Of a stretch of 64,000 bases of DNA, positions 5,533-62,341 are shown piece by piece. Position numbers and translations under genes: made by a program. This stretch comes from Hymenobacter psychrophilus. Its GTDB lineage: Bacteria; Bacteroidota; Bacteroidia; Cytophagales; Hymenobacteraceae. Below the pieces are notes generated by a model. The model was not told where the DNA came from. It made no database searches and saw only the letters and a program-made list of their open reading frames with translations. The DNA is taken from NCBI RefSeq assembly GCF_900107135.1, contig NZ_FNOV01000006.1, positions 186,001 through 250,000 on the forward strand, read 5' to 3'. Within the stretch, counting starts at the first letter, position 1. The number at the start of each line of letters is the position of its first letter.

Positions 5533-6269
5533 AGGCCCTATCCATAGAAAACCTGATTGCGGGGTACGGACGACGAGTCCTGCTCCGCAATTTGTGTTTT
5601 ACGGTGCCCGAGCCGGCCTTTGTGGCGGTTATCGGACACAACGGCTGCGGCAAAACCACCCTGTTGCGGGCCCTCACCGGCCAGCTTCCGTACGAGGGCC
5701 GCGTGAGCGTAAATGGGCAGGATCTGGGGGCGGTGCGGCGGCCGGCCGCGGCCGGGCTACTGGCCCACCTGCCCCAACGGGCCAGCGTCGAGTTTTCGCT
5801 GCCCGTGCGTGAGTTGGTGGTAATGGGCCGCTTCCGTCATCACCGCTTCCTGGGCGCTTACTCGGCCGCCGATTATGCCCTGGCCGACGCGGCGCTGGCC
5901 CGCGTGGGCGCCGCCCACCTTGCCGGGCGCGACTTCACGCTGCTTTCGGGCGGCGAGCAGCAACTGGTGTGGCTGGCCCAGCTCAGCCTGCAAGACGCGG
6001 CCCTATGCCTGCTCGACGAGCCCACCCAGCAGCTCGATGTGTACTACCGGCGCCGGGTGTTCGGGCTGCTGCACGAGTGGGTGCAGCAGGAGGGCAAAAC
6101 CGTGCTCTGCATCACCCACGACCTCGACAACCTGCTGCAACTACCCGGCTACCTGCTCAACCTCTCGCGCCCCGCGCCCCAACTGCAGGTGCTCTCGCCC
6201 GAGCTGGTGGCCACCGAGCGGGCTTACCTGGAAAGTGAGGCGAGCTTAGGGCCGCATCCGCACGCATAA
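5526..6269 (+). CDS. ABC transporter ATP-binding protein (FecE/FepC-like)
   Basis: A 247-residue single ATPase domain with Walker A GHNGCGKTTL, Q-loop LAHLPQRASVEF, signature LLSGGEQQ, Walker B ALCLLDEPTQQLD and switch His ITHD. The sequence style is closest to the ATPases of iron-siderophore or cobalamin importers. No permease or binding protein is encoded nearby, so partners must be elsewhere and the substrate cannot be inferred. The start is fixed by the family N-terminus (ALSIENLIAGYG), which places the ATG inside a repeat hairpin. Confidence 0.85.
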   Translation: MHQALSIENLIAGYGRRVLLRNLCFTVPEPAFVAVIGHNGCGKTTLLRALTGQLPYEGRVSVNGQDLGAVRRPAAAGLLAHLPQRASVEFSLPVRELVVMGRFRHHRFLGAYSAADYALADAALARVGAAHLAGRDFTLLSGGEQQLVWLAQLSLQDAALCLLDEPTQQLDVYYRRRVFGLLHEWVQQEGKTVLCITHDLDNLLQLPGYLLNLSRPAPQLQVLSPELVATERAYLESEASLGPHPHA

Positions 6270-6300
6270 AGCCAGCCCTCCATCGGAAGACTGGCTTTAT
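6266..6300. terminator. Hairpin terminator after the ABC ATPase gene
   Basis: Perfect 10-bp inverted repeat (6266-6275 with 6291-6300) that overlaps the end of the ATPase coding sequence. It lies between convergent genes, so it could serve both strands. Confidence 0.55.
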
Positions 6301-6334
6301 GTAGTGGCCCGAGGCCCCTAGGGATTACCGCTGG

Positions 6335-6637
6335 TTAGGCTGCGTTAGCTGGCGCATCTTGCAGGTCGAACAGGCCCGTGAGCACATGCAGCAACGGGGT
6401 GCTGTTACCGCGCTGGCGGGCGGCGCCCAGTTGCTGGGCCAGCCCCTGCACCACGCGCTGTACCAGCGCCGTGGTCAGCTCATCAAGCGAGTTGGTCTGC
6501 TCTGGCGAAAGCCGCTTGCTGAAGCGCCGCAGCTCTTCCTGCCGCAGCCGTTCCAGGGCCTGCGTCAGGTGCTGAATCGTCGGAACGATGCTGGCTTCGG
6601 CGGCTACCGGGAGCAGAGGGGCAGATAGGAGGGACAT
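6335..6637 (-). CDS. Stand-alone glutamyl-tRNA reductase dimerisation-domain-like protein
   Basis: A 100-residue helical protein. Its core (VPTIQHLTQALERLRQEELR, then SPEQTNSLDELTTALVQRVV) resembles the C-terminal dimerisation domain of glutamyl-tRNA reductase (HemA). The catalytic and NADPH-binding domains are absent. It could be a free-standing partner or decoy of HemA, a remnant, or a helical protein with chance similarity. It is the last gene of a minus-strand operon, 47 bases after the globin lipoprotein. The ATG at 6637 was chosen over a TTG at 6664. The domain reading comes from pattern recognition only. Confidence 0.55.
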   Translation of the reverse strand: MSLLSAPLLPVAAEASIVPTIQHLTQALERLRQEELRRFSKRLSPEQTNSLDELTTALVQRVVQGLAQQLGAARQRGNSTPLLHVLTGLFDLQDAPANAA

Positions 6638-6684
6638 AGCAGGCAGATGGAAATCAGGAAACAAATACCAATGGCGGGAGCAGG

Positions 6685-7182
6685 CTAGTGGCCCACCACG
6701 TCATCGTGCATATTGTCGATGATGACGTACAGCTCAGCCTTGTCGCTGGCCGACACATTGTTGCTATTGAGCGAACCCTCCAGTTGCTGGCGCCATACAC
6801 TGAACTCGTTGGGCGTAACGGCCATGCCGCGGTGCGCAGCCAGCATGCTCAGGCCCTTATAGGTAAGCGGACCGCCGGTAGCCTCGCCCAACTGATCGAC
6901 GAAGTTATTGCGCAGCCGCTGCAGGCGGGTAGGGTCGGTGGGGGCCTGGCCGTTCACGCCGTTTACCGCATCAAGCATGGGCTTGTGCGAGCGTAGCATC
7001 ACCGAGTTAGGCACGGCCGTTTCGGCCCCTACGTTGGCCACCAGCCCGTCCACGATGCGGGCAATACCTTCCGTTTTGCCCAAACGGTCATAGAGGGTGG
7101 GAGCTGCTTCCTCTTTGCTGCCGCAGGCACCCAGCAGCAGGGAACTGGCCAGCAGGCTGGCCGCGAGTAGGTTTTTTTTCAT
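6685..7182 (-). CDS. Truncated-haemoglobin-like lipoprotein
   Basis: A 165-residue exported lipoprotein: signal peptide with lipobox LLLGAC (Cys20), then a group 1 truncated haemoglobin-like domain starting LYDRLGKTEGIARIVDGLV. The likely proximal haem ligand is His117 in LSMLAAHRGMAVT, matching the AHxGxG region of trHbN-type globins. Truncated globins are normally cytosolic, so the lipoprotein signal is notable. It probably sits in the periplasm or outer membrane and may bind O2, NO or act in electron transfer. The ATG at 7182 directly precedes the signal peptide. It is the fifth gene of the cytochrome-YceI-DUF5777 operon. Confidence 0.8.
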   Translation of the reverse strand: MKKNLLAASLLASSLLLGACGSKEEAAPTLYDRLGKTEGIARIVDGLVANVGAETAVPNSVMLRSHKPMLDAVNGVNGQAPTDPTRLQRLRNNFVDQLGEATGGPLTYKGLSMLAAHRGMAVTPNEFSVWRQQLEGSLNSNNVSASDKAELYVIIDNMHDDVVGH

Positions 7183-7231
7183 GAAAAGTAAATCAGTTAA
7201 AAGAGAGGTAGCTGGTTTGGCTTTGCAGCCG

Positions 7232-7666
7232 CTAGAGCTGCACAAAAAGACGCCGCAGGTTGAAGGCAAAGCGCACCCGTTCGATGGCCTGTAGGTAGCT
7301 GGGTGGTACGGGGCACTGCCGGGCCGCCTCGGCCGCGGTAGCCTCGGACTGCGGCAATGGGCTCAGCGCCAGCCGTTGCTGCAGTTCTTCGGCGCTAAGC
7401 TCGGCAGAATGATAGGCCAGCGTCAGCAGATGCTTTTCGGGGCGCAGGGCGCAGGCCGTTACACCCGGCAGAGCCAGCGCCCGGGCTTGCAGTTGCCGGG
7501 CAGCGGCGCCCGGCTGCAGGCCCGGTGCCGCTAGGGTAATAAACTCAGTGGTCGGCGTGAACTCGTGCAGGCTGGGCTCCTGCCAACTGCCCCAACCTAT
7601 CAGCGTCAGTAACACCAAAGCCCCAGCCAGCTTGGCTTTCGCCCAGCGGAAATGTCGCGTAGTCAT
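7232..7666 (-). CDS. Membrane-anchored HMA-like protein
   Basis: A 144-residue protein with one N-terminal hydrophobic segment (about residues 13-27) followed by a small domain. The pattern of a helix (AARQLQARALALPGV), a strand with Cys (TACALRPEKHLLTLAYH) and a helix (SAEELQQRL) recalls the beta-alpha-beta fold of heavy-metal-associated domains. The canonical CxxC is missing, so metal binding is doubtful. It lies 12 bases after the DUF5777 gene and 49 bases before the globin gene. Function unknown. Confidence 0.6.
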   Translation of the reverse strand: MTTRHFRWAKAKLAGALVLLTLIGWGSWQEPSLHEFTPTTEFITLAAPGLQPGAAARQLQARALALPGVTACALRPEKHLLTLAYHSAELSAEELQQRLALSPLPQSEATAAEAARQCPVPPSYLQAIERVRFAFNLRRLFVQL

Positions 7667-7678
7667 ACCAAAACAGGG

Positions 7679-8581
7679 CTAGAGCTGCGACTTGAGGGTG
7701 AAATTACGGGCCACAGTGAAGCCGAAGTACAGGTCGCCGGAGAAGAACTTGCCGGTGGTTTCGGGCACGAAGAATTTTTCCGTCATGCCCAGCGAGTTGG
7801 TCACGTGCAGCTGGAAAATATGGCCGCCCGTTTCCAGGTCCACGCCCAGGCCCAAGGCGTTGCGGAAGTTATCGGCCGTGTTGCCCGGCAACAGGTAGTA
7901 GTAATCGGCGGTGAGGGCCGTGCGCTTCGTTATTTTCTGGCGCAAGCCGCCGCCCAGTGCGTACACGTCGTTCTGCTGGCCCGGCGTGGCTACGTAGTTG
8001 CGGTGAATGAGCGTGGGCATGAGTTGCACCGACAGGTTGGGGCTGAACTTGCGGGCAATCAGGGCTTGGTAGGAGTACGTAACCCGCGACGCCGTCGAGC
8101 GGTCTTCGCCGGGCGCCAAGTTGAATTTGAGCGTGTTGATGGCTGACGAGGCGAACAACGTGACCGATACGGGCATGGCCCGCGCGCCGGTTGTCTGGCG
8201 GATAGCCCGGTACTTCAGCGAGCCGTCGTAGGTTTTCTCCTGCGAGCTACGGCCGATGCCAACAGTTAGCCGGTCGGTGAGGCCGTACTCGAAGCCCAGG
8301 CGCAGTACGGCTTGGTCGAGGCCAAAGAAGTTGTATGCGCCGCTGTTGAGCGTGCCGAAACGGTGCTGAATCAGGAAGGCCAGGGTGCCCTCGCCCGGCG
8401 TTTCAACCGACTGCGAATTGATGATGTGGGTGGCCTTGAACGTGGCCGACACTACCTCCCGCTTCTGCGGGTCGGTGGTCTGCGAGTCGAGCTGGCCGAG
8501 CAGGTCGCCGGTTTGAGCGTATGCGGCAGGTGCCAGCAACAGGCCCAGCCCGAGCCCCAAAACGGATACAAATGTTTTCAT
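7679..8581 (-). CDS. DUF5777 family outer-membrane beta-barrel protein
   Basis: A 300-residue protein with a signal peptide ending PAAYAQ. The rest alternates polar and hydrophobic residues in beta-strand fashion (for example LRLGFEYGLTDRLTVGIGRS) and ends in an aromatic-poor terminal strand. The sequence fits DUF5777, a Bacteroidota barrel family of unknown role that I recall near c-type cytochromes and YceI proteins. It lies 24 bases after the yceI-like gene. Likely located in the outer membrane. Confidence 0.75.
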   Translation of the reverse strand: MKTFVSVLGLGLGLLLAPAAYAQTGDLLGQLDSQTTDPQKREVVSATFKATHIINSQSVETPGEGTLAFLIQHRFGTLNSGAYNFFGLDQAVLRLGFEYGLTDRLTVGIGRSSQEKTYDGSLKYRAIRQTTGARAMPVSVTLFASSAINTLKFNLAPGEDRSTASRVTYSYQALIARKFSPNLSVQLMPTLIHRNYVATPGQQNDVYALGGGLRQKITKRTALTADYYYLLPGNTADNFRNALGLGVDLETGGHIFQLHVTNSLGMTEKFFVPETTGKFFSGDLYFGFTVARNFTLKSQL

Positions 8582-8605
8582 ATAAAGCAGTTGCGAAATG
8601 AATTC

Positions 8606-9253
8606 TTAGTTGGCGGGCCGCGTTGCGGCCGGCGCCGCTACTGGGTTGGCAATCAGCACCACCCGAACGCGGACTATTTTGGCAATATTCTCGCGCACCA
8701 GCAGCGGCACCTCAATGTTGTAGTCGGCCGGCGCCACATTGAAGCTGGCAAAGGCCTGTAGCTGGCCATTTTTAATTTCGAGCGTGGCCGGCACCACAAT
8801 CCGGCGCGTTACGCCGTGCAGCGTCAGGTCGCCTTCGGCCCGGAAGTTATGGTTGCCCGGCACCGTCAGCACCGACAGGTCGGCATCGGTGAAGCGGCCA
8901 GTGAAGGTGGCCCGCGGAAACTTGTCGGATTCCATATAGTTCTCGTTGAAGTGCTCCTGCATCAGGGTGCGCTTGAAGGTGAACTCCTTGATCGGAACCG
9001 AGAAGGCGAACTGGTTGGCCGTTACATCGACGATGGAAGCCGTCGAATTATTAATGGCCTCAATATCCTCGATGATACTGGTTGAAAAGAACGTAACCCT
9101 CCCCTCCTTGGTCATGAAACGCCCCTGCGCGTGGCCGTGGAAAGGAGCCGCCAGTAGCAGCGCGCCACCTAAAATCCCCTGTAGCCTGCGCAACGCCCAG
9201 CCAGCACGCCCTAAAAAGGCGGTAGCAACTAAAATAGCCTGGGAAGTAGCCAC
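8606..9253 (-). CDS. YceI family periplasmic protein
   Basis: A 215-residue exported protein with a long hydrophobic N-terminus ending GHAQ, then a YceI domain: KEGRVTFFSTS, FAFSVPIKEFTF, FPRATFTGRF, GDLTLHGVTRRI and the final strand. YceI proteins are lipocalin-like barrels that bind long isoprenoid or amide lipids and are often found with cytochromes. The start appears to be GTG at 9253, 9 bases after the cytochrome gene, which suggests translational coupling. Confidence 0.85.
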   Translation of the reverse strand: MATSQAILVATAFLGRAGWALRRLQGILGGALLLAAPFHGHAQGRFMTKEGRVTFFSTSIIEDIEAINNSTASIVDVTANQFAFSVPIKEFTFKRTLMQEHFNENYMESDKFPRATFTGRFTDADLSVLTVPGNHNFRAEGDLTLHGVTRRIVVPATLEIKNGQLQAFASFNVAPADYNIEVPLLVRENIAKIVRVRVVLIANPVAAPAATRPAN

Positions 9254-9262
9254 TACCCGCGC

Positions 9263-9655
9263 TTAGTTATCGGGTTGGCCGGCCTCAATCCAGGCCTTAA
9301 TTTTGGCAATGTCGCACACGGCTATCTTGGCCCCTCCCTTGGGCATCGGATCGAAGCCGGGAGCGTGCTGTACCGAGCCAAGAATGAGGCTGGCCGATTG
9401 CTTTTTGATACCCTGGAAGTCGCTGTAGTCGTTGCCGCCACCCAGCGTCTGGTACACGGAGGCGCCGTGGCAGCTGCGGCAGTTGGCATCAAAAATGGGC
9501 GAAATATCCTTCGCATAGCTCACAGCTTCGGTTGCCGTGGGGCAAGGGCTGGGCACTTCCCCGGTCGAGTAGGTGCAACTACTGGCTACGGCCGTTAGCA
9601 GCACGGCCAGCGCCGCACTTATTCCCAGAATAGGAGTAGTAAAAGTTAGTCTCAT
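9263..9655 (-). CDS. Monohaem c-type cytochrome lipoprotein
   Basis: A 130-residue protein with a signal peptide and probable lipoprotein Cys27 (AVASSC), a CRSCH haem-attachment site at residues 59-63, and a candidate axial Met104 in FDPMPKGG. The domain (SYAKDISPIFDANCRSCHG) is of the small Bacteroidota/Planctomycete type. It would carry electrons in the periplasm. It is the first gene of the operon, and two inverted repeats lie 79-131 bases upstream. The ATG at 9655 is preferred to an upstream one because it starts the signal peptide. Confidence 0.85.
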   Translation of the reverse strand: MRLTFTTPILGISAALAVLLTAVASSCTYSTGEVPSPCPTATEAVSYAKDISPIFDANCRSCHGASVYQTLGGGNDYSDFQGIKKQSASLILGSVQHAPGFDPMPKGGAKIAVCDIAKIKAWIEAGQPDN

Positions 9656-9733: not shown

Positions 9734-9786
9734 ACTTCTATCAGAAGTTGTATTCCAGATTTGGGCTTGGTTTACCAAATATGGAA
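9734..9786. promoter_or_regulatory. Two inverted repeats upstream of the cytochrome/globin operon
   Basis: ACTTCT-ATC-AGAAGT at 9734-9748 is a perfect 6+3+6 palindrome. TTCCAGATTTGG (9753-9764) pairs with CCAAATATGGAA (9775-9786) at 11 of 12 positions. GGACTTCT (9732-9739) recurs directly at 9825-9832. Neither is followed by a T-run, so operator sites for the operon are as likely as a crtY terminator. The rest of 9656-10024 shows nothing gene-like. Confidence 0.4.
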
Positions 9787-10024
9787 TGGCCAACCCATAT
9801 ACACTAGCACTATTCGATAAGACAGGACTTCTCCCAGTCGGAAGGGTAAAAAAACCCCATCAAAAAATCACACCAACTTCGAAACAGCCAAGTTCTTCCG
9901 ACCTATAATGCAACTGTTCAGCTTCTTTACATCCCTTTGCAAAAGCACCCAAAAACAGCCCGTCAGCCAGAGGGCCAGCAGTCTCTTGGGGTACTTTTTA
10001 CAAACGGATGCCAATCTTGGGCCG

Positions 10025-26899: not shown

Positions 26900-28597
26900 T
26901 CACTCCAGCCCGCGGCGGAAACCCTGGCTGATGCGGGGGCCGCGCCAATGCAGATCGGGCGGCAGGCGGCCGGCAGCGCAGGGCAGGGGGCAATTATTGC
27001 AGCGGAAGCCGGAGCCCCGGATGCCCAGCCGCACGGGGCGGCCTTCAAGGCGGGTGGAGGCAATGGGCAACGCGGCATAAGGAGCCGGCCGAAACCAGGT
27101 GGCCGGGCTGAACGCGCCGATTTCGTGGCGCAGGCCGTTGAGGCCATACACCAGTGCCAGCGCCAGCACAGCCCGCCGCAGCCAGGGGTCACCGGGTAAG
27201 CCGCCCGCCAGTAGCGCCGCCCCCACCGCTGCGGCCCCAATCAGGTAACCGTAGCCAAACCGGAAGGCCGGGGCAGCCGCAAACCACAGCCCGCAGCAGG
27301 CCAGCAGCAGGCCAAACAGGACGGTGGCAGACCGCTGCTGCCGGGCCGGGCTCAACAGCTGCCGCAGGGCCAACAGCAGCGCCAATGCAACTATAATCAG
27401 AGCCAGAACCTGATCGTGAGGAGCTTGCTGCCGCCACCAGAACGGTACCCAGGCCAGGGCTGGCTGGTGGCCACCGGTAACCCAGTCGCCGGCCGGCCAC
27501 CGGGCGAAGTAGCGGATTTCCAGCAGGTCGGCGACGGCCTGGGTGGCGGGCACGGTCCAGTCGAGAGGCAATGCGGCCCAGGGTGCCAGCGGGTACACCG
27601 GGTAGCCCGACAATACCACGTTGCGCCCCAGCCAGGGCAGGGCGACTAAAGCCCCGATCAGGCAGGCCAACCCTACAAGGCGCGGCATCGAAAGATTGGT
27701 CGGCCGCAGCCGCCACAGCGCGAAGCCCAGCGGCAGCGCCAGGTAGCCGGCCGAAGCTTTATACGTTACGGCCGTGGCCAGCAGCGCCACCAGCAACCCG
27801 GCTTCGGCCCGGCTCAGTTGCACCGAGCCACCGGGGGCCAGCAGCTTTTCCAGCAGCCAGCCCAGCACGAGCAGCGTGAGAATGGTCACGCCGCTGTCGG
27901 GCATGGGCGACGAAATCCAGGGGCGAAAAGCAATGAAAACGAAAACCAAGCTGAGCCCGCCGTACACGGCCAGCACCGCCGCCGGCCGGGGCCGGGCCAA
28001 CTGCCGGGCGGCGTAACTAATGAGCAGCACGAACCAGAAGCTGCTCGCTGCCTGCTGCCCCAGCGAAGCCCAGGGGCCGTTGGCGCGGGCACTGAAAAAA
28101 CCCGTGAGCAGGTGCAGATGCGAGTTGAAGGCCAGCCGGCCGTGCAAATTGCCCAGGCCCGGCACCACCGGGTAGGTTTGCAGCCACTGCACCGTTTGGG
28201 CGTGGTACAAGCCGGTATCCGAGAGAATGGGCATCTGCGCGGCGTGCAGCAGCAGCAGCGCCCCGAACACCAAGGCCAGTGCCACGGCACCCAACCAGCC
28301 CGGCTCCTGCCACGAGGCCCGTAACTCAACCCACCACGTTTGCCGAACCACCGCTGGCGCCTTTAGCAAGCACCAGAATCCGTAGCCCACCGCTGCCGCA
28401 GTCAGACCCAACTGCACCCCCGGCCCAATGCTCAACCCAAACGACAGCAGCGCCAGCAGCCAGCTCAGGCCCGCCAGCCCTACCGCCAGCCGCAGCTCGG
28501 GCGGCAGCGTGGGAGCCAGCCGGGGCCCCGCCAGCGCGTGGCCCAGCCCGTAGCTCACGCCCGCCACCCACAGCCACAACAGAAGCACCAGCAGCAT
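26900..28597 (-). CDS. Polytopic membrane protein, LIC_10190-like
   Basis: A 565-residue protein with around 12-13 hydrophobic segments. A conserved first-loop region follows the third segment (MPILSDTGLYHAQTVQWLQ, then VPGLGNLHGRLAFNSH) and resembles the Asp-bearing loop of GT-C type glycosyltransferases and of LIC_10190 family proteins. If it is GT-C-like it would use lipid-linked sugars at the membrane, but this is inference. It is Leu/Ala/Trp-rich with high GC, in strong contrast to the low-GC gene upstream on the same strand. Confidence 0.7.
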   Translation of the reverse strand: MLLVLLLWLWVAGVSYGLGHALAGPRLAPTLPPELRLAVGLAGLSWLLALLSFGLSIGPGVQLGLTAAAVGYGFWCLLKAPAVVRQTWWVELRASWQEPGWLGAVALALVFGALLLLHAAQMPILSDTGLYHAQTVQWLQTYPVVPGLGNLHGRLAFNSHLHLLTGFFSARANGPWASLGQQAASSFWFVLLISYAARQLARPRPAAVLAVYGGLSLVFVFIAFRPWISSPMPDSGVTILTLLVLGWLLEKLLAPGGSVQLSRAEAGLLVALLATAVTYKASAGYLALPLGFALWRLRPTNLSMPRLVGLACLIGALVALPWLGRNVVLSGYPVYPLAPWAALPLDWTVPATQAVADLLEIRYFARWPAGDWVTGGHQPALAWVPFWWRQQAPHDQVLALIIVALALLLALRQLLSPARQQRSATVLFGLLLACCGLWFAAAPAFRFGYGYLIGAAAVGAALLAGGLPGDPWLRRAVLALALVYGLNGLRHEIGAFSPATWFRPAPYAALPIASTRLEGRPVRLGIRGSGFRCNNCPLPCAAGRLPPDLHWRGPRISQGFRRGLE

Positions 28598-28801
28598 CGT
28601 CAGAGAAGGGGCAAAAGGTGTGTAGTATGGAAGGTGTTACTAAGTGGACTAATTATATCAGCCTGGAAACAGTAGCAGCTGCTCTTTAAAACAAAGACAG
28701 TCGCTGATATAAATATTGCTAAATAACCAGATATTGAAGGAATTGCGGAGTCGCTAATAGAGGAAATTAGGCAATAGATTAAACTATCATTTTGTTTGTT
28801 T

Positions 28802-30217
28802 TTAGGAACCAAAAAGAGGTAACACACTAAGATTATTATTTGTGCTTTGCGGCATTCTATATGCTGCGTTGTAGCGAGTTGTACCTGGAATTAATTCTAT
28901 AAGATTTTTCTTGACCATTAGTTGCAATACTCTCTTCATTTGGTTTTCAGATCCTATGTAGCATATTTCCCTAGCAATTTTGTTGTTGATACTATAGTTT
29001 GATTTTAGAAAATCCAAAATAAGCTCTTGAGGAGTAGCAAGCTTTTCGTGCTTCAGACTTACTTTGACATAATTCCCCTCCTGTAAAATTAAAGGAGGCT
29101 TTAATTTCATCTCTCTCATTGCAGTGAATGCTGTATTCAGGCCTTCACCAACATCTTTATTAGGAGGGTTTGGGAATTTGTTTATAAGTCTGACGATAAT
29201 ACCATTTCTTGCGAATCTTTCAGACAAAATATTTTCTGTAGTGATATGAGCCGGTAAAGTGCCTGGACTAATCACTTCTACTCTGTTGTCGAATATACGT
29301 ATATGTATATCATCAGAAATACTATAATCCCTATGCAATACTGCATTAGTGATTATTTCGTGCAAAGCAGTTTCAGGGTAAGTGACGTATTCCAGACCAG
29401 CAGCTGTAGATACTCTTACGGATTGAATTACATTAACTGTTTTTTGTAATGCATTTTGTATCTGAATATAAGCATTTCCATCTATTGATATTGGATCAAA
29501 ATCTAAAGCCGCTCTGGTTCCCTCATCGTCAGATGTTTTGTATCTATAGACTTTCAAGCCACAGCGTTTTGCCAGAATAGATTGAGGCTCATCCGAATAT
29601 AAAATTATCCCTGCAACAACTGGCTTGTTATTGCGAATTAATTGTTGTTTTCTGAGCCAGGATTCTGGTTCAGAATGAGGAATGACCTCATACATAAATT
29701 CATAAACGGAAAGAGAATTTGTTATCGTATCTATGTCAGCATTAATAGTTTCTATTTCAAAAGATGTAATTCCTTTATTACGCTCTAGGCGTTTGACGTC
29801 TTTTTCATCAGTATAAGGCAAATTTTGCGCGCCTCTTCTTACGTACACCTGACCATCAGACGATTTTTTTATCGAACCTGACTTAGAAATATCAACTTTA
29901 AGTATGTATCCTTCTTGTTTTACATTATTCAAAAATGAATATTCGAATCCATCCCCTAGAGGAAAAAGCATCTCAAATGCTTGTAGATGTCCATTTATAT
30001 CTTCTATTCGCGGGAATCCTTCCCAAAAGTTTTTATTTAAATTTTTATCTTCTCTAATGCCAATGTATAGCTCACCTCCCTCCGCATTAGCGAAGGCAGC
30101 AATTGTTTTTGTAAGCTTAGCAGGTTTTATCTCCTTAGACTTTACATCCAGGAAATGACCTTCTTCAAGAAGTAATATTTTTTCTACTTCTTCATCTGTG
30201 ACTGAGAGAGTCTTCAC
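28802..30217 (-). CDS. AlbA_2/Schlafen-type DNA-binding ATPase-like protein in a low-GC island
   Basis: A 471-residue protein. The N-terminus carries an AlbA_2 (Schlafen AlbA) signature: EGHFLDVKS, then IAAFANAEGGELYIGI. The middle and C-terminal parts match a HATPase_c_4-type ATP-binding module (ALHEIITNAVLHRDYS, RIFDNRVEVISPGTLP) followed by a probable winged-helix end. Such proteins are often annotated as transcriptional regulators or appear in defence islands. Base composition is clearly AT-rich compared with every neighbour, pointing to recent transfer. The GTG start at 30217 is only 12 bases behind the asnS stop, so it may ride on the asnS transcript. Confidence 0.82.
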   Translation of the reverse strand: MKTLSVTDEEVEKILLLEEGHFLDVKSKEIKPAKLTKTIAAFANAEGGELYIGIREDKNLNKNFWEGFPRIEDINGHLQAFEMLFPLGDGFEYSFLNNVKQEGYILKVDISKSGSIKKSSDGQVYVRRGAQNLPYTDEKDVKRLERNKGITSFEIETINADIDTITNSLSVYEFMYEVIPHSEPESWLRKQQLIRNNKPVVAGIILYSDEPQSILAKRCGLKVYRYKTSDDEGTRAALDFDPISIDGNAYIQIQNALQKTVNVIQSVRVSTAAGLEYVTYPETALHEIITNAVLHRDYSISDDIHIRIFDNRVEVISPGTLPAHITTENILSERFARNGIIVRLINKFPNPPNKDVGEGLNTAFTAMREMKLKPPLILQEGNYVKVSLKHEKLATPQELILDFLKSNYSINNKIAREICYIGSENQMKRVLQLMVKKNLIELIPGTTRYNAAYRMPQSTNNNLSVLPLFGS

Positions 30218-58851: not shown

Positions 58852-61194
58852 TTACTGCTTGCTTACCCGCATCACCTTGGCTTCGCCCGAAGGCATTACC
58901 AGGCGCACCAAGTAAATACCGCTGCGCAGGTTGGCTACGTTCGGCACGGATACGTCGTTGATACCGACAGTGAGTTGCACTGCCTGCTGGCTCACTACGC
59001 GGCCCGTCATATCGGTTACCGACAACTGGGCCGGGCCGGCTACGCTCGTGTTGGCCGTCAGGGTCAGCACCTCTCCGAAGGGGTTCGGGAAAGCCCGAAC
59101 TTCCGCTTTGGCCAATTCAGCGCCCCCATCAAACGTCACCACTTTAGGCGCATAATAATGGTCGGTACCGTCGAGGTCGATCTGGCGCAGACGGTAGTAG
59201 CGCACGCCGGTCTTACCCGCTTCGGTATCGATGTAGCGGTAGCGCAACAACTGGTTGCTATTGGGCGAAGCGCTGGGCACGAACGTCAGGGCCCGGTAGT
59301 TGCGGCCATCGTTGGACACCTGCAGCTCGTAGCCGCGGCTGTTCAACTCATTTACCGTTTCCCAGGTAATCTCGGCATTCTTACCTACGCGCTTGGCGTC
59401 AAACGCCGTGAGCGTAACGGGCAGCGGTGCGGTGAACTCGCTGAGCGAGAAGGTAGCAAACGTGGTTACATTGGTTTTGACCAGAGTATTACTTTCCGTA
59501 TCCAGTGCGTCGCGGCCCAGCTGCCCGAACGTGTTACCGCTCGATGTAGACACGAACAGGGCTAATTTACTCTCATCAAGCGTTTGATTGTTGGGGATGA
59601 GGTTCGTTAGCTCGTTATTGAGGTAACGGAACGTAAGCGTAGCATTCAGGCCGCCGGTGTTGGTCTGCTGGTCGGCAGGGCGTACTCCGAAGATGCGACG
59701 GATGGTTGGGCGGCTGTTGGAGCCATTATTAACGGAAGTGTAGTTTTCCGCCGTGTTACGCGTTACCGTTACAATGCCCGGGTTATTGCCAACGAAGTTA
59801 AGTGAGAGGCCAATGTTACCGAAATCCTGCGTAGTGCCCGCACGAGCAACCTCCGCAATCTTCACGTAGCCCCGCAGATACGAATTATCCGTTTCGCCCT
59901 CGATACGGGCCGACTGAATACCTACATTGTTGACGTTGGTAGCCGGAGAAAGCTCTACAAACGACACGTTTACCGCGCTGATATTGGTCCGCAGAATACC
60001 GTTGATGAAGCGGAGGACACCGCCGGCCTGAACAGTAAAGTTGGTAGTCAGGTCTTTGATGCCGCCACCCGAAATTTCCACATTAACCAGACCCGAAGCC
60101 GAGCCACTGATAATTTGGTCGGTACCGGCAAAGGCGATAGTCGTGTTTTCGCGCTGGATAAAGCTATCCTGCTGGTTGTTAAAGTCGCCAAATACATTCA
60201 GGCGACCTACTACCAGGCGGGTAATAGAACGTTGGGCCTGGCTGGTGCCATTCATGGTGAAGGTGCGGGTTTGCGCCGGACCCGAGGCGCCTCTTGGGCC
60301 AGTTGCCGTATTGTCGTAACCGGGTACATCGGTAGTTACAGTTGACGTGCCACCGCCTGGATTTTGGATGACGGTTTCGCGCGTGCTAGGAAGCTTAATG
60401 GCGTCGCTGTAGATGTTGGGGTATTGAATTGTGGAACCCGAACCAAAGTCCGGAATCGTGGCATCTTTACCGGAGTTAGGTACTCCGTTGCTCCAGTTGG
60501 CCGGATCAAACCAATTGTCATCCTGTCCGCCGGTCCAAGTAGTGGAAGTCGGAGGCTCAGTGGGGCGTACGCCGGTTACGGTGAAGGTGGCTTGGTAAGC
60601 CCCCCCAGGGGGCGTCTGAATGGTAAATGTACGAGGGGTACCATTGCTACGTGTGGTACGGCCAGAAACCGTAAAAAACACGTCGACGGTGTAAGAACCC
60701 GGTGCTAATGTCGTATTGGCGGTAGCTCCTCTGAGTAGGTCGATATTAGCTATATCATTGAAAAAGGATTTATCCCCGCCACTGGTGTTCACCAGAGGCA
60801 ATGCAATGGTACCACTAGTAACGGGGGCGCTAACACCATCAGCTGTTACATTGTAGGTAAGGGTAGCACTGTTAATGACATCAGGGGCAAACTCAGAGGT
60901 AAAAGCGGAACCGCCATTGAGCAGCAACGTGGTGTTGAAATTAGATACATCAAACGTACCCAAGTCCTCTCCATCAAAGTCAGGAGCCGCAGTGGTATTC
61001 TGCCCATCATAAGTCACGTTGCCAGTACCAGGGTCAATTATGATATTGGAGCCCGTAAAACGTGTGTTTGGGTTGCTCGGCTGCGCCTGCGCTGTGAAGC
61101 TCGTGCCGAAGAAAACAAACAGCGCCAGCAGGGGTAATAACCGTTGCCAGACTTGGCCCCGAAGGGCGGGAGGAGAAGATAATAGTGCTTTCAT
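58852..61194 (-). CDS. T9SS type A sorting-domain surface protein
   Basis: A 780-residue secreted protein. The signal peptide ends FTAQAQ. The large middle part is Thr/Asn/Gly-rich beta structure with no named domain; WTGGQDDNWFDPANWSNGVP near residue 240 is a motif found in many Bacteroidota surface proteins. The stalk before the C-terminus (LPVTLTAFDAKRVGKNAEITW) resembles that of the T9SS protein at 51045. The final 75 residues (FPNPFGEVLTL... VRLVMPSGEAKVMRVSKQ) form the T9SS type A sorting domain. A TATTTTTG box on the minus strand lies 127 bases upstream. Confidence 0.85.
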   Translation of the reverse strand: MKALLSSPPALRGQVWQRLLPLLALFVFFGTSFTAQAQPSNPNTRFTGSNIIIDPGTGNVTYDGQNTTAAPDFDGEDLGTFDVSNFNTTLLLNGGSAFTSEFAPDVINSATLTYNVTADGVSAPVTSGTIALPLVNTSGGDKSFFNDIANIDLLRGATANTTLAPGSYTVDVFFTVSGRTTRSNGTPRTFTIQTPPGGAYQATFTVTGVRPTEPPTSTTWTGGQDDNWFDPANWSNGVPNSGKDATIPDFGSGSTIQYPNIYSDAIKLPSTRETVIQNPGGGTSTVTTDVPGYDNTATGPRGASGPAQTRTFTMNGTSQAQRSITRLVVGRLNVFGDFNNQQDSFIQRENTTIAFAGTDQIISGSASGLVNVEISGGGIKDLTTNFTVQAGGVLRFINGILRTNISAVNVSFVELSPATNVNNVGIQSARIEGETDNSYLRGYVKIAEVARAGTTQDFGNIGLSLNFVGNNPGIVTVTRNTAENYTSVNNGSNSRPTIRRIFGVRPADQQTNTGGLNATLTFRYLNNELTNLIPNNQTLDESKLALFVSTSSGNTFGQLGRDALDTESNTLVKTNVTTFATFSLSEFTAPLPVTLTAFDAKRVGKNAEITWETVNELNSRGYELQVSNDGRNYRALTFVPSASPNSNQLLRYRYIDTEAGKTGVRYYRLRQIDLDGTDHYYAPKVVTFDGGAELAKAEVRAFPNPFGEVLTLTANTSVAGPAQLSVTDMTGRVVSQQAVQLTVGINDVSVPNVANLRSGIYLVRLVMPSGEAKVMRVSKQ

Positions 61195-61320
61195 TCTGAT
61201 GAAGAGTTAAAAAAGAGAGGGAATTTTTTCCAATTGTGGGACTAACGCGCCCGCGCTCAAGCGAGTTCGAATCGACTATACGGAATCGGAAAATTATGGC
61301 CGGATTTTTTTATAAAAAAT

Positions 61321-61328
61321 CAAAAATA
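61321..61328 (-). promoter_or_regulatory. Possible -7 element for the second T9SS gene
   Basis: TATTTTTG on the minus strand matches TAnnTTTG in a strongly AT-rich stretch between the bestrophin stop and the T9SS start. The resulting leader would be about 120 bases. AT-richness makes a chance match possible. Confidence 0.35.
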
Positions 61329-61417
61329 TGCAATCAGCCGGCTGGAAAACGCGTAAAACGGCTTACACATGTCATATATTCAATAAATTGTATAACAAAT
61401 AGCAATAAGCGAGCCAG

Positions 61418-62341
61418 CTACCGGACTACACTGTAAGGCGGATAAGCCAATGCTTTCTTAAAATGGGGAAGCTCTACGTTCAGCACGTCGTGCACACTCA
61501 CCCGGATTTTGTGGGCCAATTGGGTAATGGGTAAATCGTTGCTGTCGGTACCGAAGGGCTGCTCGATTTCCTCGGCAATCATGACCAGCCCCAGCATGAT
61601 ATAAGCTCCCACCATCGTGATGGGAATCATCCAGTAGCCGCTGGTAGCCAGTAGCACAAACGGCATGATGCCAATGAACAGGGTAATGAACATCTTGATG
61701 AAGAAGGTGTAAGAGAACGGAATAGGGGTAGACTTGATCCGCTCACAAACGCCGTTCACTTCCATCATACCCAGCAGATGGGGCTTGAAAACCAGTAAAT
61801 GAACGGGGTCGATTATCTGGGCCTGGCGCAGCTGCTCAATGCTTTCCTGTAAAACGGCCAGCAGGCAGACCGTGGGGCTCTCGGCAGCCTGCAGCCGTTC
61901 GATAATGTCGGGGGTAGCCTCGAACTGCTCGTAGCGAACATTGTTGCGCAGGCTGCCCTTGAGCGCCAGGGGGAAGTTGGAAATCAGGGCCGCGTAGTAG
62001 GCCCGGCTGCGGGCCGCATCGCGGGGCAGAATGGCATTGAGTTCGATGGCCAGCCCCCGGCAATGCGACACGAGCTGCCCCCATACCCGTCGCCCCTCGT
62101 AGTAGCGGTCGTAAGCCGTGTTGGTGCGGAACACCAGCAGCAGGCTGAGCATGATACCCAGAAACGAGAAGTACTCGCGGCCCAGCTGAATGGGAACGGC
62201 ATGGTAGCGCAGCACGATCAGGGCCACGGCAATGTTATAGACAGCCACCAAGGCTACCCGGCGTAGCAACAGCCGAATGATGCTTGACGTATGGAAATGC
62301 CAAAGGGCCCGCCACCAATCACCGGCTTTATAAACAATCAT
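61418..62341 (-). CDS. Bestrophin-like (UPF0187) channel protein
   Basis: A 307-residue membrane protein. N-terminal helix region (IIRLLLRRVALVAVYNIAVALIV), then the family signature SLLLVFRTNTAYDRYYEGRRVWGQL, and the C-terminal pair MIPITMVGAYIMLGL and EEIEQPFGTDSNDLP. Bacterial bestrophins form pentameric cation channels. The ATG at 62341 (MIVYKAGDWW) was chosen over one 8 codons upstream because the family usually starts with this segment. Confidence 0.85.
   Translation of the reverse strand: MIVYKAGDWWRALWHFHTSSIIRLLLRRVALVAVYNIAVALIVLRYHAVPIQLGREYFSFLGIMLSLLLVFRTNTAYDRYYEGRRVWGQLVSHCRGLAIELNAILPRDAARSRAYYAALISNFPLALKGSLRNNVRYEQFEATPDIIERLQAAESPTVCLLAVLQESIEQLRQAQIIDPVHLLVFKPHLLGMMEVNGVCERIKSTPIPFSYTFFIKMFITLFIGIMPFVLLATSGYWMIPITMVGAYIMLGLVMIAEEIEQPFGTDSNDLPITQLAHKIRVSVHDVLNVELPHFKKALAYPPYSVVR

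Follow-up and report, generated by a model that had tools for sequence, protein, structure and literature searches.

What is a stand-alone piece of HemA (glutamyl-tRNA reductase, GluTR), the first enzyme of haem synthesis, doing behind the gene of an exported globin? The question is raised by six minus-strand genes at 6335..9655 of the window, the 64,000-nucleotide stretch of Hymenobacter psychrophilus DNA analysed here (contig NZ_FNOV01000006.1, positions 186,001 to 250,000). We find that the locus is composed of two blocks and an addition: a common triad of cytochrome c, YceI and DUF5777 genes, a narrower haem-linked pair encoding a heavy-metal-associated (HMA)-fold protein (protein 4) and a lipoprotein truncated globin, and a reduced HemA, hereafter the orphan. 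The exported globin probably has a link to haem supply, because in relatives the same type of globin sits beside a complete hemA. Tentatively, we favour a reading in which the pair depends on haem supply or reports it, and in which the orphan would pair with, or dock on, the resident HemA and tune 5-aminolevulinate (ALA) synthesis.

The first block comprises a small exported cytochrome c (9263..9655, minus strand) that precedes the YceI and DUF5777 genes and has the predicted CRSCH motif with a PF13442 score below cut-off (20.8 bits against 27), a YceI-like exported protein with a GTG start (8606..9253, minus strand; PF04264, 1.6e-15), and a DUF5777 protein predicted to be an outer-membrane barrel (7679..8581, minus strand; PF19089, 1.2e-90). 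Export signals are judged by eye from the sequence. The locus is compared with genomes of the window's family and genus (family f1, genus g1; including Hymenobacter actinosclerus, H. aerophilus and H. amundsenii, genomes G116, G108 and G175) and of the family of Siphonobacter aquaeclarae (f11; genome G1013, locus L165), which we take to be Spirosomataceae. In f1, 32 of the 36 globin genomes are examined with their flanks, the low-scoring G094, G013, G111 and G115 being left outside; in f11, 17 pair loci of a first set and 23 fetched afterwards give 40 loci from 222 genomes.

The two blocks occur apart. DUF5777 is present in 149 of 200 f1 genomes and the globin in 36. YceI and cytochrome c precede DUF5777 in 80 of 80 records with enough upstream DNA (some places are counted twice), and many loci have the triad without the pair. 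The triad precedes the pair in 20 of the 32 f1 globin loci, with a CHRD-type gene in between in eight (Pfam on one); it is missing from nine, and one further locus is cut. The order is reversed in L130 and L131, where globin and protein 4 are located before the triad. No triad is found in the 17 f11 pair loci searched for it. The pair, by comparison, holds together: protein 4 adjoins the globin in 30 of 32 f1 loci and in 40 of 40 f11 loci, the exceptions being a contig that ends at the globin (L134) and a locus with a short globin frame and no protein 4 found (L137). Across the phylum, the pair occurs in 4 of 395 drawn genomes, every one in f1 or f11.

These counts bear on the original prediction of a single six-gene system, here read as one envelope system of electron transfer or gas sensing. 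The six-gene order does recur, flanked by the same neighbours, in five further genomes of the genus (L064–L068), and with the frequent placement of the triad before the pair this speaks for such a system. However, the triad is far commoner than the globin and is lacking at the f1 and f11 globin loci just described. One envelope system is therefore very unlikely, and one general six-gene system is ruled out; the triad is a separate unit sharing the gene string in the window's locus. The literature searched gave no paper on DUF5777. A sequence search of the Protein Data Bank (PDB) at E 1 yields no match for the DUF5777 protein; those for the cytochrome and YceI are weak. In G189 (L077), a secreted-repeat lipoprotein (PF03640) and then a second triad lie downstream of the operon hemA.

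Haem-synthesis genes are found beside the pair. In S. aquaeclarae, hemA lies downstream of the HMA–globin genes. Plain counts give, within the 15–20 kb examined at each locus of the first set, hemA at six loci, always as the next gene found and on the same strand, hemF at six and hemH at three (15 of 17 loci), and in the second set hemA at 11, hemF at two and hemH at three (16 of 23). The second-set loci without such a gene are L240, L242, L243, L244, L248, L253 and L255, and contig ends cut L242, L243, L253 and L255. Over both sets, a hemA lies behind the globin at 17 of 40 loci, with a gap between frames of a few to about 530 bases, and hemF and hemH occur at eight and six more, for a total of 31 of 40 loci and 9 of 14 f11 genera. 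Pfam confirms representatives, and the operon HemAs of relatives carry all three HemA domains (Pfam) and keep the active-site motif. None of hemA, hemF and hemH is found in 15 control loci, which are f1 loci with the triad and without the pair, somewhat shorter than the f11 loci. Such a link is rarer in f1: among the 32 globin loci, six carry the orphan and one (L077) a complete hemA. In one f11 genus (L201–L206), an extracytoplasmic function (ECF) sigma factor gene and an RskA-type anti-sigma gene lie divergent beside the pair (Pfam on L201 only).

The orphan (6335..6637, minus strand) resembles the HemA dimerisation domain, as had been predicted: it matches PF00745 at 2.4e-12, scoring 47.5 bits (cut-off 22.9), over profile positions 20–99 of 99, and weakly matches NCBIfam HemA models (5.6e-6). 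The product of 100 residues matches PF00745 alone above cut-off; it has the C-terminal dimerisation domain of GluTR and lacks the catalytic domain with the active-site Cys and the NADPH domain. The orphan is found in at least six of 120 genomes of the genus, always downstream of this globin, and every orphan genome has exactly one full HemA elsewhere, which in the window's genome is on another contig. A stand-alone GluTR dimerisation domain is not described in the literature searched, which is no proof of absence.

The ratio of non-synonymous to synonymous differences per site (pN/pS) between the window's orphan and its three nearest relatives is 0.35, 0.41 and 0.46, with upper bounds of 0.52, 0.58 and 0.61. 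The upper bound is below 1 in 15 of 15 pairs (maximum 0.95), synonymous sites being near saturation in the distant pairs. For the same three pairs, the C-termini of the resident HemAs give 0.08–0.19; the orphans evolve faster. On these substitution patterns, the orphan is under purifying selection that is less strict than that on resident HemA, because its pN/pS is below 1 yet above that of the HemA C-termini. The orphan might instead be what remains of a disrupted hemA, its product harmless or little used, with the haem link belonging to the HMA–globin pair alone. The weaker selection fits such a leftover, and remnants do arise, for example the cut-down second hemA of G181, but the frame is open, the position the same and pN/pS clearly below 1 in six species, which makes a leftover somewhat unlikely.

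Where does the orphan come from? In HemA trees of 61 and then 69 sequences, the f11 operon HemAs (six, then 17) form one clade (Shimodaira–Hasegawa-like approximate likelihood ratio test, SH-aLRT, 96) and the G189 operon HemA is placed among Hymenobacter second copies (SH-aLRT 97). In approximately unbiased (AU) tests, which use about 115 columns with long branches, the data are compatible with a single origin of the six orphans (p-AU 0.39) and reject placing them in one clade with either the operon HemA of G189 (p-AU 0.004) or those of f11 (p-AU 0.016). Judged by these trees, HemA-type genes probably joined the HMA–globin pair about three times, because the f11, G189 and orphan genes have separate origins. 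The best matches of the G176 and G078 orphans are seven second-copy HemAs; a second copy is also the best match of the window and G116 orphans, and a first copy that of the G175 and G108 orphans, so that by best match the ancestry of these four is unclear. A recent duplication of the resident HemA is an unlikely source, since the orphan's own HemA ranks 30th–44th of 59 matches. On present sequence comparisons, the orphan probably derives from a second-copy hemA.

The second hemA set comprises 13 of 15 loci fetched, with L144 and L148 excluded as first copies. A strict motif search hinted at three catalytically dead second HemAs; the alignment shows the active-site Cys in 61 of 61 rows, and the idea is rejected. 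Near the second hemA, a homologue of CcoG, a cbb3-oxidase assembly protein, is found in seven of the 13 Hymenobacter loci (L138, L139, L141, L143, L145, L147 and L149; Pfam on representatives) and hemF in four. This suggests that second hemA, cbb3 genes and hemF make up a low-oxygen haem-synthesis set in Hymenobacter. If the orphans stem from the second-copy line, they may go back to a gene that supported respiration at low oxygen. At L069 of G181, a frame of 222 residues away from any globin retains the C-terminal part of a second hemA and is probably its remnant.

How would the parts work together? At the core would be the HMA–globin pair. Its HMA-fold protein is membrane-anchored and has no CXXC, its lipoprotein globin has an apolar distal pocket, and the two would act jointly in the extracytoplasmic space, on haem or on one of its ligands. 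The making of the pair would be tied to haem supply, in many relatives through a complete hemA behind the globin, and the pair would depend on, or report, that supply. In the window's clade, the HemA-type gene encodes the dimerisation domain alone, probably that of a second-copy HemA. As a free protein, this domain would remain in the cytoplasm, where it would pair with the resident HemA by the dimer interface or fill a docking site there, and the bound orphan would tune ALA synthesis while the operon is on. We infer this mechanism, including a single transcript, joint action of the pair, HemA binding and an effect on HemA in either direction, from gene position, ancestry and precedent.

The precedent is plant GluTR. 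The top PDB match of the orphan, a weak one, is 4yvq (E 0.014), the recombinant Arabidopsis GluTR dimerisation domain solved with FLU. According to PMC4726326, the isolated domain folds by itself and binds FLU (4yvq), which docks on the GluTR dimerisation domain and represses GluTR; PMC13258150 describes GluTR as a control point in other bacteria as well. The docking of FLU would equally suit an orphan that forms its own dimer and holds another partner, such as the cytoplasmic end of the HMA protein or a GluTR-docking regulator, leaving HemA untuned, and one full HemA per orphan genome fits either case. But no such partner is known, and no FLU-like protein was noticed nearby, none having been sought; we consider this arrangement quite unlikely.

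We still prefer a pair tied to haem supply with an orphan acting on HemA. Beside the faster evolution of the orphans and the short, long-branched alignment behind the AU tests, several points weigh against it. No hemA, hemF, hemH or orphan is seen in the DNA examined at 25 of 32 f1 globin loci. In f11, linked hemF and linked hemH come from a single genus each, on the opposite strand and some kilobases off, and by the tree the 17 f11 hemA loci go back to one inherited event; independent events are hence few. Two f11 genomes have no other hemA than the linked one, which may there be just a neighbour. The control loci are drawn from another family than f11. Few events and distant, oppositely oriented hemF and hemH are also what chance or shared inheritance without a functional tie would give. 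Such an origin of the placement is nonetheless highly improbable, as three different haem genes lie at the pair in 9 of 14 f11 genera and in none of 15 controls, and a HemA-type gene occupies the same spot from separate origins. The coupling of the exported globin to haem supply that was originally proposed is partly supported: it gains from the complete hemA following the pair in 17 of 40 f11 loci and one Hymenobacter, and is left without a visible link at the 25 f1 loci; no finding points to gas or haem sensing.

In our judgement, the matching of haem supply to extracytoplasmic haem proteins is still poorly understood. Several lineages place a small exported globin module next to genes of haem synthesis, and the HemA-type genes that share one position there apparently have separate origins, so that deletions could test the link. 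If the orphan does bind HemA, the regulator would itself be a fragment of the enzyme that it acts on. It is possible, if doubtful, that a free GluTR dimerisation domain from a second HemA, made together with an exported globin, is a regulator of a new type: by entering or capping HemA dimers, it would link haem synthesis to a haem protein outside the cytoplasm.

The globin (6685..7182, minus strand; PF01152, 3e-9) has a model with a predicted local distance difference test (pLDDT) score of 91.4, and its best structural fit is S. benthica HbN (Z 18.5, root-mean-square deviation (rmsd) 1.1, 116 residues). His117, the predicted haem ligand, corresponds to the proximal His F8 in the alignment with solved truncated haemoglobins. 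Neither His117 nor the lipobox Cys20 varies in any of the 30 rows of the family alignment; with a 2-on-2 globin fold and His F8, the globin belongs to group N. Alignment to the residues named in PMC11904497 places B10 at Val48, E7 at Leu90, E11 at Phe94 and F8 at His117. At B10, each of the 30 rows has V, I, L or M and thus lacks the Tyr of subgroup 1 (HbN of M. tuberculosis), and hydrophobic B10, E7 and E11 place the globin in subgroup 2 (assigned by residues, not by a subgroup tree). By analogy, an HbN-like nitric oxide dioxygenase role is unlikely, because hydrophobic distal pockets of this sort accompany low O2 affinity according to PMC11904497. In f11, the globin partner holds three globin domains (L208:7872-9179) or two (L209:6211-7053) within one lipoprotein, and further f11 loci have globin frames of similar length. 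The literature searched holds no paper joining Hymenobacter with truncated haemoglobin.

Protein 4 (7232..7666, minus strand) has no Pfam match above cut-off as a single sequence. However, its family profile of 30 rows matches HMA domains (best 3.9e-15, to ATP7B, 7xuk), and the model (pLDDT 82.9) shows a long N-terminal helix, an HMA core and a C-terminal helix. The core superimposes on 6a71 with Z 12.0 and rmsd 1.3 over 66 residues, giving a ferredoxin-like HMA fold, and the metal-binding CXXC of HMA proteins is missing throughout the alignment. Invariant columns include W25, W28, P119, V120, P121, Y124 and R138, and C72 and C118 are conserved in at least 90% of rows. Strong orthologues are found only in f1 and f11 (390 genomes of the order, 395 of the phylum; 40 of 222 f11 genomes). 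In G106 (L074), a TGA interrupts the globin frame and both conserved cysteines are missing from protein 4, as though the two genes were decaying together.

The open reading frames have gaps of 9, 24, 12, 49 and 47 bases, exactly as predicted, with starts at ATG 9655 (cytochrome c), GTG 9253 (YceI), ATG 8581 (DUF5777), ATG 7666 (protein 4), ATG 7182 (globin) and ATG 6637 (orphan); an alternative TTG start of the orphan at 6664 would shorten the gap to the globin. The four Pfam families named with that prediction, DUF5777, YceI, Bac_globin and GlutR_dimer, all match, and neither the likeness of the last gene to PF00745 nor the conservation of the gene order, on which the prediction hung, has failed. 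A 17-base inverted repeat at 6265..6301 (repeat search) is a probable terminator shared with a convergent ABC gene. Inverted repeats of 14–17 bases lie 3' of the orphan gene, both here and in three of the five relatives with the six-gene order (L064, L065 and L066; not L067 and L068). A consensus terminator scan did not list the repeat at 6265..6301, and matches in the sigma-70 and terminator scan are no richer than in shuffled sequence. Upstream of the cytochrome gene (9776–9817, minus strand), CGAATA is followed about 30 bases on by a TTTG-type element; CGAATA lies at a similar distance in eight of 69 upstream regions listed, all from near relatives. Elsewhere in the window, GC is 0.45 at 28001–30000 and 0.51 at 60001–62000, against near 0.6 for most of it, and these stretches are possibly acquired DNA.

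Each part has a known counterpart. The globin shares its fold, hydrophobic B10, E7 and E11, and His F8 with S. benthica HbN (group N, subgroup 2), but has a lipoprotein signal, an insertion with an extra helix at the CD turn and, in f11, tandem forms. Protein 4 shares the ferredoxin-like fold with the HMA domains of ATP7B, CopZ and MerP (Z 12.0 over 66 residues), but has no CXXC, carries a membrane helix before the domain and a helix after it, and has its own conserved W25, W28, C72 and C118. The orphan shares the PF00745 dimerisation domain with GluTR (2.4e-12, positions 20–99), but has about 100 residues without a catalytic or NADPH domain and lies downstream of a globin gene. With the regulation of plant GluTR by FLU (PMC4726326), the common point would be control through a partner that meets the dimerisation domain; whereas FLU is a tetratricopeptide repeat (TPR) membrane protein, the orphan is a piece of the target itself and would bind by analogy.

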